In this document: one piece after another, positions 13,271-15,446 of the stretch
How the letters are laid out: the number at the start of each line of letters is the position of its first letter
Numbering within the stretch: the first letter of the stretch is position 1
Assembly (NCBI GenBank): GCA_022827025.1
Contig: JAJDTT010000058.1
Coordinates: forward strand, 1 to 41,605
From: Acidobacteriota bacterium
Lineage (GTDB): Bacteria; Acidobacteriota; UBA6911; RPQK01; JAJDTT01
DNA: 41,605 nt
Reading direction: 5' to 3'
Notes under the pieces: model-generated
What the model saw: the letters and a program-made list of their open reading frames with translations, nothing else
Told to the model about the DNA's origin: nothing
The model's database searches: none
Made by a program: the position numbers and the translations under genes

Positions 13271-14299
13271 CCTGTCTTTCTTTTCGCCCAGGTAGCCTCT
13301 CCGGTGGGCGACCTTGAGCTTGTCGATCTTGCCGTCCCCGTTGATGTCCACCTTCACTTCCACCTTGATCCGGCGCAGTTTCCCGTCCTTCTTGGTGTTG
13401 GTCGAGATATAGCCCAGGGAGTACTGGTTCCGGAGAAGGTTGGCGATGGTCAGAAAGATGTTGGGGAACTGAGTCGTGAACCGGGGGAAGAACGCCTCTC
13501 CTCCGGTGTACTTGGCCATCTCCTTCAGAACCACGTCGGCCTGGTAGAAGTCCATCCTCGTCGTGCTCGAAAAACGGTCTTCGTACCGGAGCCTCAGGTT
13601 CTGGCCGATGCTGACCGGATAGATCACGGCGTTGGTTCTCTTGACCTTGTCCAGGGCCTCTCCCATGTTCTTCCGGCTGAAGGTGTCCAGGCCGGAAGAG
13701 ATGAGCACCACGGCGGTCTTGCCTTCCGCCTCTTCGATTCGATCCAGGACGTCGAAGACGGTGTCGTAGAGGTTGCTCTCCCGGAATCCGGGATAGTTGA
13801 GGCGCTGGAGGGCCCGGTAGACCTCGAACTTGTCCTGGGTGAAGTCCACCAGGATTTCCGGCTTCAGGTCGTAGGCGACGACTGCGATCCAGTCATCCTT
13901 TCGCATGTTCTCCGCGAAGATTCGGGACCCGAGCCAGGCTTCGTAGAGCATCTCCCATGGCAGGACGGCGCTGTATTCGGTCACCAGGACGGCCGTGATG
14001 GGAGCTTCGATGGGGCTGAAGTGGGTGAGCTTCTGCTTCACCTTGTTTTCGTAGACGTCGAAGTGTTCTTGCTGAAGCCCTTGGATCAGGTTTCCCTTGC
14101 GGTCACGGACCGTGACGTCCAACCGCACCTGATCGACCTCAACGGTCAGGGCGGCCCGGCCCTGGGGCCGATCCCGCTCCTCCTCGATCTGCCGGGATTG
14201 GCGGTCCGATCCCTGGCTCACGGCCAGGACCGCCGTTTGCGCCAGTCCGATGGTACAGAGGAGAGCGGCCAGCAACAGACTCCTAGGCGTTGGTTTCAT
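13268..14299 (-). CDS. Secreted VWFA-related protein with a degenerate metal site and an EF-hand-like loop
   Basis: 343 residues from the ATG at 14299 (GGGAGAAACC upstream). Residues 1-29 form a signal peptide (SLLLAALLCTIGLAQTAVLA). It follows the acidobacterial VWFA pattern: VDQVRLDVTVRDRKGNLIQG, QEHFDVYENKVKQKLTHF, TAVVLISSGLDTF and LLRNQYSLGYISTN. The normal MIDAS D-x-S-x-S is replaced by VTEYSAV (residues 106-112), so the usual metal-dependent adhesion chemistry is probably lost. Near the end lies DINGDGKIDKL (318-328), a calcium-loop-like motif of EF-hand/dockerin type, just before the family's terminal RRGYLG. Role unknown. The stop codon is in the family B repeat. Confidence 0.85.
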   Translation of the reverse strand: MKPTPRSLLLAALLCTIGLAQTAVLAVSQGSDRQSRQIEEERDRPQGRAALTVEVDQVRLDVTVRDRKGNLIQGLQQEHFDVYENKVKQKLTHFSPIEAPITAVLVTEYSAVLPWEMLYEAWLGSRIFAENMRKDDWIAVVAYDLKPEILVDFTQDKFEVYRALQRLNYPGFRESNLYDTVFDVLDRIEEAEGKTAVVLISSGLDTFSRKNMGEALDKVKRTNAVIYPVSIGQNLRLRYEDRFSSTTRMDFYQADVVLKEMAKYTGGEAFFPRFTTQFPNIFLTIANLLRNQYSLGYISTNTKKDGKLRRIKVEVKVDINGDGKIDKLKVAHRRGYLGEKKDR

Positions 14300-14339
14300 G
14301 GTTTCTCCCAGGCTTGAGGACGCCGGTTGGATTGCTTTC

Positions 14340-14348
14340 ATACTAACA
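14340..14348 (-). promoter_or_regulatory. Candidate extended -10 promoter of the VWFA gene at 13268
   Basis: TGTTAGTAT on the minus strand is an extended -10 like sequence (TG, one base, then TAGTAT). It lies about 40 bases upstream of the ATG at 14299, leaving room for a leader with the GGGAG site. A good -35 is not visible. Confidence 0.3.
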
Positions 14349-14453
14349 TATGGGGAGGCTCCCGACCGGGACCGGCCCCGCGGCCGAATCCATGAAATCA
14401 TCCGGACCCGCTCCTCGTTTCTCACGCCTCCTCCTGGTGGTAGAATCGCGGCA

Positions 14454-15284
14454 GTGAATCTCGAAGAGAAAGAAACGAATCTCTTTCAGTACCTCAAGCG
14501 GTACCGCCGCGTCATCGTGGCCTTCAGCGGCGGCGTCGACAGCAGTTACCTGGCCTTCTGCGCCCACCGGGTGTTGGGCCGCGAGGCGCGGGCCGTCACG
14601 GCCCTTTCGCCCTCCGTTTCCGCATACCAGCGACGGCTGGCTCTGGACTTCGCCCGGCGCTACCGGTTGAATCACACGCTGGTCGAGACCCAGGAGATGG
14701 ACAATCCCGACTATGTCCGGAATCCGACCAATCGATGCTATTTCTGCAAGGACGAACTCTACGTTCACCTGAAGCGGCTGATTCGGGAATGGGATGCGGA
14801 AGCGATTCTGGACGGCTCGAACATGGACGACATCGGGGACTACCGGCCCGGCCGGCGCGCCTCCCGGGAGCAGGGCGTCCTGAGTCCCTTCATCAACGTG
14901 AAGCTGAGCAAGGACGAGATCCGGTCGCTGTCGCTCAAACGGGGGCTCCCCACCTGGGACCTTCCGGCCATGCCCTGCCTCTCCTCCCGCTTTCCCTACG
15001 GCGTCGCCATCACCGAGGAGAAGCTGCAACAGGTCGATGCGGCCGAAGCCTACATCCGGAGCCTGGGGGTGATCAGCTTCCGGGTGCGGCATCACGAGGA
15101 ACTGGCCCGGATCGAGGTCGACCGGGCGGAGCGCCACAAGCTGATGGACCCGGATCTTTTCGACGACATCAACCGCAAGCTCCGCTCCCTGGGGTACCGG
15201 TACGTCACGCTGGATTTGCAGAGCTTTCGGTCCGGCTCCCTGAACCAGGTGGTGAACCTGGAACTTTCTTCCGGACAGGGCTAG
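14454..15284 (+). CDS. larE: LarE-family ATP-dependent sulfur transferase
   Basis: 276 residues from a GTG at 14454. An upstream open frame from 14250 is antisense to the VWFA gene. The PP-loop ATP site is AFSGGVDSSYL (SGGVDS at 25-30). LarE adenylates and thiolates pyridinium dicarboxylate for the nickel-pincer cofactor. Some members use their own cysteine and others an iron-sulfur cluster. Three cysteines are placed as in the cluster type: Cys95 and Cys98 (NRCYFCKDELY) and Cys175 (MPCLSSRFPYG). Also typical are ILDGSNMDDIGDYRPG and the GVAITEEKL segment. No larA, larB or larC is in the window. A TAGAAT seven bases before the GTG may be a -10 giving a leaderless transcript. The stop codon is the first part of the 166-base palindrome. 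Confidence 0.9.
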   Translation: MNLEEKETNLFQYLKRYRRVIVAFSGGVDSSYLAFCAHRVLGREARAVTALSPSVSAYQRRLALDFARRYRLNHTLVETQEMDNPDYVRNPTNRCYFCKDELYVHLKRLIREWDAEAILDGSNMDDIGDYRPGRRASREQGVLSPFINVKLSKDEIRSLSLKRGLPTWDLPAMPCLSSRFPYGVAITEEKLQQVDAAEAYIRSLGVISFRVRHHEELARIEVDRAERHKLMDPDLFDDINRKLRSLGYRYVTLDLQSFRSGSLNQVVNLELSSGQG

Positions 15285-15446
15285 GAGTCTGCGCGGTAGA
15301 AGTGATCGTAGCGAGAAAGTGGAGAAGCGAGGCCAGATTTTCACGATTTAGAGGCGCATAGTTGTTCTATTCGCCGAGAAATCGGGGAAATATGGACCGA
15401 TTATACGCTTTCGCAGCAGATCAATTTCTGCCGCGCAGGCTCCTAG
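15281..15446. repeat. 166-base near-palindromic element (family C) at the end of larE
   Basis: The ends are CTAGGAGTCTGCGCGG and, on the other side, CCGCGCAGGCTCCTAG. The outer 27 bases of both arms match with few differences down to GATC. Inner parts also align (CCAGATTTTCACGATTT against the reverse complement of AAATCGGGGAAATATGG). The centre is a clean hairpin, GGCGCATAG (15353-15361), loop TTGTT, CTATTCGCC (15367-15375). It begins inside the larE stop. It contains no gene. A MITE-like element, a conserved structured RNA or a large terminator are all possible. From 15447 to 15514 nothing else is visible. Confidence 0.75.

Follow-up and report, generated by a model that had tools for sequence, protein, structure and literature searches.

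MITEs derived from ISMac2, a member of the IS1182 family, are present in Methanosarcina acetivorans as elements of 160 and 169 bp (PMC3852290, Table 4), and the 160-bp form, with 14 copies, has 26-bp inverted repeats and 4-bp direct repeats (PMC3852290). A further IS1182-linked MITE, MITEPye1, is known from Paracoccus yeei (PMC11578231), and IS1272 of Staphylococcus aureus, also of the IS1182 family, is reported to transpose by replacing inverted repeats (PMC5678879).

The element considered here lies in a 41,605-nt stretch of DNA from an Acidobacteriota bacterium (the whole stretch is referred to below as the window). As judged from their descriptions, the ISMac2-derived MITEs are like it in size class, in their inverted repeats of 25–26 bp, in the link to IS1182 and, for one of them, in the 4-bp direct repeat, but their host is archaeal and they number 7–14 copies rather than about 90. 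MITEPye1, again by description, has IS1182-like ends, direct repeats, a long predicted stem-loop and a mostly intergenic location in common with our element, and differs in its host and in having only 1–3 copies per chromosome. IS1272 resembles the putative mover in its transposase family and in its interest in palindromic targets; however, it leaves no target repeat and removes an inverted repeat of 22–30 bp, whereas insertion of the present element gives a net gain of 162 bp at short sites at most testable loci. No description of this particular family was found in the freely accessible papers searched. It is an ordinary but abundant new MITE family, of a kind (IS1182-linked MITEs) that has already been published.

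The palindrome after larE

The sequence immediately 3' of larE (assigned by TIGR00268, E 4e-94) is an imperfect palindrome over its full length, and the gene downstream of it encodes a gamma-glutamyltransferase. The features are as follows.

14250–15284, + strand: larE (LarE, TIGR00268), which precedes the element
15281–15446, no strand: whole palindrome with its flanking CTAG repeats (166 bases, as delimited in an earlier note)
15281–15284, + strand: left CTAG target repeat, in which TAG is the larE stop
15284–15443, no strand: MITE proper in the 2-bp register, GGAG...CTCC, 160 bp (register from the bases next to GAG and CTC, and from empty sites; see below); if the target repeat is taken as 4 bp, the MITE is GAG...CTC, 158 bp
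15284–15307, + strand: left terminal inverted repeat, GGAGTCTGCGCGGTAGAA..., with the same ends in IS1182-family elements
15333–15395, no strand: inner arms and TTGTT loop, free of coding sequence
15420–15443, − strand: right terminal inverted repeat, reading GGAGCCTGCGCGGCAGAA... on the − strand (inner boundary approximate)
15443–15446, + strand: right CTAG target repeat

The earlier note, made from the sequence alone, had described a near-perfect palindrome that begins within the larE stop, is centred on a TTGTT loop and is lower in GC than its surroundings. The position and loop are as it described: the TAG stop (15282–15284) falls within the left CTAG, TTGTT is at the centre of the fold, and a 191-base stretch has a folding energy of −95.7 kcal/mol, where composition-matched shuffles average −58.1 (sd 4.2; z −9.1; equalled by none of 200). 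“Near-perfect” is apt for the ends, where ungapped outer arms of 24 nt are 88% complementary, and less so for the middle, where the inner arms (29 nt) are 76% complementary. The GC content is indeed low, with 50.6% in the element compared to 60–67% in the preceding coding sequence and 62–75% afterwards. The 160 bp contain no gene of their own, and are too short to encode a transposase.

A stem-loop right at a stop codon would suit a terminator that acts in both directions between larE and its downstream neighbour, the gamma-glutamyltransferase gene; a terminator was one of the identities that the note had offered. The stem is not followed by a T-tract, however, and a scan of the window gave neither terminator-like nor promoter-like consensus sites within the element. 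In addition, the copy is missing at the orthologous larE locus of G003, where LarE extends three residues beyond the window's LarE at its C-terminus. We regard a terminator as extremely unlikely.

Copies, ends and empty sites

The earlier note had proposed a search for further copies, and stated that it would be refuted if there were no second copy anywhere and no covariation among relatives; the results do not refute it. A 20-base probe from the asymmetric centre matches 92 places in the same genome (reversed-pattern control, 0), and a 15-base probe from the end matches 214 (control, 23). A similarity search of this genome gave 40 scored places at 93–100% identity, from 151 first-look candidates, together with two reverse-strand self-matches. 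Many contigs start or stop inside a copy, as expected of an assembly that breaks at repeats. All three congeners carry the same element, at 92–95% identity, as does G011, which belongs to another family of the same order, at no more than 89%. The remaining 13 genomes of that order and the 42 class- and phylum-level relatives searched gave no copy, and searches of IMG/VR and of plasmids gave no match. The family thus has the attributes that we used to recognize a MITE: many dispersed and similar copies shorter than about 600 bp (here 160 bp) that lack a transposase gene, and terminal inverted repeats.

Several variants were seen among the copies. Versions with internal deletions, 46–110 bp long and with both ends kept, occur at L021:1500-1545, L032:1500-1553, G001:C22, C13, C25, C32 and G002:C626. 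In L169, L202 and L200 (G000:C81, C110 and C22), a few tens of extra bases are inserted immediately internal to one end; those of L169 and L202 form a small hairpin of their own (GGGGGGACTTTTAGTCCCCCC). At L008:2447-2472 (G000:C271:19030) there is a lone right end (CCGCGCAGACTCCTAG) with the rest of the element missing; the gene upstream of it may encode a uracil-DNA glycosylase, which it resembles.

The boundaries of the element were placed by comparing 91 complete copies, which run GGAG...CTCC. GAG is preceded by G in 89 of them, and CTC is followed by C in 88. Outside these ends the dinucleotides, for the most part TA, are variable, as are the bases beyond them, chiefly C and G. Variation is 11–39% at the flank positions and 0–4% at the adjoining element bases. 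The target is mostly CTAG, usually on both sides, and the remainder are CTGG, CCAG, TTAG and others. For copies with non-TA dinucleotides, the two sides agree 13 times where 2.6 would be expected, a number reached by none of 50,000 shuffles, and this agreement demonstrates that 2 bp of the target are duplicated, or 4 bp with the adjoining C and G included. Target-site duplications, which the earlier note had suggested looking for, are therefore present, although in about 30% of copies the two sides are unequal. The repeat was at first read as 4 bp. That reading was given up, since the innermost flank bases hardly vary and the outermost ones show no duplication; L003, L011, L191 and L230 still look like longer duplications.

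An extragenic palindrome in high copy also brings to mind the REP/REPIN type, which is moved by a Y1 (RAYT) transposase. Here, though, the length is 160 bp, versus 20–40 bp for REP, the ends start with GGAG and not with GTAG or CGTC, and there are direct target repeats; the ends in particular largely exclude such an origin, to which we give almost no credence.

When the joined flanks were compared with sister-genome DNA, an empty counterpart in G001 or G003 could be aligned for 16 insertion sites. In most of these comparisons, removal of the 160 bp and one dinucleotide results in a gap-free alignment. L003 (GTTA|GC in both), L019, L132 and L183 (CCTG|GG in both) are clear cases, while L011, L013, L015 and L026 have indels at or near the join. 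Replacement of an inverted repeat in the manner of IS1272 is not supported by the empty sites.

These sites also bear on another identity raised in the earlier note, a conserved structured RNA, or an mRNA 3'-end element, with a cellular function and spread by some other duplication process. The very strong fold noted above would fit this reading. Moreover, 35 diverse copies retain pairing in 98.2% of pair cells, with a covariation score above those of 500 shuffles and of all slid versions; the covariation measures beat most controls, and the shuffles ignore the relatedness of the copies. In the covariance check that the note had called for, double changes are found in only 3 of 58 pairs, with pairing otherwise kept mainly through invariance and G-U changes. 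The one clear compensatory pair (G-C to C-G, columns 12/156) belongs to the terminal repeats, and two ends that follow the same transposase would account for it equally well. Rfam gave no match at the gathering threshold anywhere in the window, the copies adjoin unrelated sequence, and the 16 sites empty in sister genomes imply that the element is dispensable there. We see no need for an RNA function, and consider it highly improbable as the primary identity; a transcribed hairpin of such strength may, however, affect the larE message.

IS1182-family elements with the same ends

Complete IS1182-type elements of approximately 1.5 kb, with ends GGAGTCTGCGCGGCAGAA and flanks CTA|...|TAG, are found in other bacteria. 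Their terminal 18 bases occur as either end of the MITE with one mismatch, and the transposases of three of them (L264 from Aquincola, L277 from Roseateles, and L284) score above the IS1182 equivalog cut-off. Unlike the MITE, these elements are autonomous, with a transposase of 437–442 aa; the comparison covered their ends and flanks. A pattern combining the MITE end with the start of the transposase protein, run over the GTDB genome collection, gave 41 stretches. A few of these are chance matches; most are of IS1182 type, and many of them are complete, the right end matching and CTA|...|TAG lying on either side. The hosts of the IS1182-type matches are Burkholderiales, other proteobacteria, Nitrospirales, Myxococcales, Planctomycetota and an acidobacterium. 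Several GGAGTCTGCG matches inside other transposase genes proved to be coding sequence and not ends. In OY282353.1, two IS1182 elements (L290 and L295) are inserted right at the CTAG of a neighbouring IS1182 end.

Within the order, G011 has a contig that begins inside an IS carrying the exact MITE end. Its gene starts MGTSFRRYEPDQLLL, like those of other IS1182 transposases, and the first 23 bases of this IS (its left end) are identical to the right end of the G011 MITE. Only end fragments of this GCGCGG-ended IS are assembled, along with the start of the transposase gene. The transposase search in the genus led to related IS1182 elements with TCCGAGAA ends. Three IS1182-family elements of the genus (L082, L095 and L122; NCBIfam NF033551, E < 1e-120) are flanked by CTAG and begin GGAG.CTGTCCGAGAA; they have the outer GGAG.CTG and the CTAG target in common with the MITE, but a different inner end sequence. 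A second palindromic MITE of about 115 bp, also with CTAG flanks, occurs at L247:267-382 (G001) and L086:1290-1406 (G000:C269), and its ends, GGAGCCTGTCCGAGAAC, match IS1182 elements of the genus.

A cognate IS in the same genome is usual for an IS1182-linked MITE, and is not strictly required. Here the search of G000, the draft genome to which the window belongs, gave no intact IS with precisely the GCGCGG ends; this absence counts against the IS1182 explanation and is possibly a gap of the draft assembly. None of the DDE_Tnp_1, DUF772, DDE_5 or DDE_3 transposases of the genus have the exact GCGCGG ends.

A mover from another family that shares a TA or CTAG target, e.g., IS630/Tc1 (TA) or IS5/IS701, was considered as well. 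The flanks fit the 2-bp TA duplication that is the hallmark of IS630/Tc1-mariner, and IS630-type transposases are present in G001. On the other hand, G000, G002 and G003 all carry the MITE and have no DDE_3 (IS630) match, the IS630 and DDE_5 loci identified have other ends than the MITE, and it is in IS1182-family elements that the exact ends and target are present. A different transposase family is largely excluded on this basis, and remains very unlikely.

Because of the shared GGAGTCTGCGCGGCAGAA ends, the CTA|...|TAG flanks, the IS1182 transposases and the 23-base identity in G011, we consider it highly probable that the palindrome is a MITE whose ends are recognized by an IS1182-family DDE transposase, which mobilises it in trans. 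Cross-mobilisation as such, judged from the common ends and target, is very probable. The MITE-like option of the earlier note is thus strongly supported by the roughly 90 copies, the defined ends, the target repeats, the empty sites and the autonomous elements with the same ends. In the proposed mechanism, the 160-bp gene-less MITE would be recognized in trans at its terminal inverted repeats, GGAGTCTGCGCGG, by the IS1182-family transposase, which would excise or copy the element and place it in rare sites that resemble CTAG (mainly CTAG, CTGG and CCAG), leaving a short target sequence on both sides. At larE, the element would have landed in, or created, a TAG stop, so that the upstream gene keeps a stop codon. 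We further infer that the interior of the palindrome serves no function of its own.

Unequal flanks, CTAG avoidance and significance of the family

In the copies with unequal flanks (approximately 30%), the two dinucleotides nearly always differ as TA versus something else. Examples are L005, L008, L028 (TTAG/CTGG), L134, L184 and L188, and one side is usually CTAG. The inequality extends to the youngest copies, and this counts against plain duplication: of the copies with a neighbour at ≥98.6% identity, 8 of 24 have unequal flanks. At two sites whose empty counterpart is clear, one flank corresponds to the empty site and the other is CTAG: L134 has CGAG/CTAG flanks and an empty site of CGAG, and L184 has CTAG/CTTG flanks and an empty site of GTTG. 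Rearrangement between copies is excluded as the cause where both flanks are contiguous in a sister genome.

CTAG is strongly avoided in this DNA, with an observed/expected ratio of 0.09 in the window and 0.05 in sister DNA. In the window and the G003 stretches L301-L374, CTAG is depleted 10–20 fold and TTAG and TTAA about 10 fold, and CTGG and CCAG are in excess. This word bias resembles that attributed to very-short-patch repair in other bacteria. One explanation for the unequal flanks is accordingly a biased decay of the avoided CTAG into CTGG and CCAG. Alternatively, IS1182-type transposition might carry the donor CTAG along, with each side then resolved to either the donor or the target sequence; the unequal young copies and the patterns of L134 and L184 are the grounds for this reading, which we put forward only tentatively and think rather unlikely.

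Elements of this kind are known, but for the host group, the Acidobacteriota, we found no earlier report. The family accounts for some 90 otherwise puzzling palindromes and, in these draft assemblies, for many contig breaks; its copies should be masked before searches for structured RNAs or regulators in this clade. IS1182 is a poorly characterised transposase family, and the abundant IS1182-linked MITE family in this order of Acidobacteriota offers enough copies and empty sites for a study of target choice.
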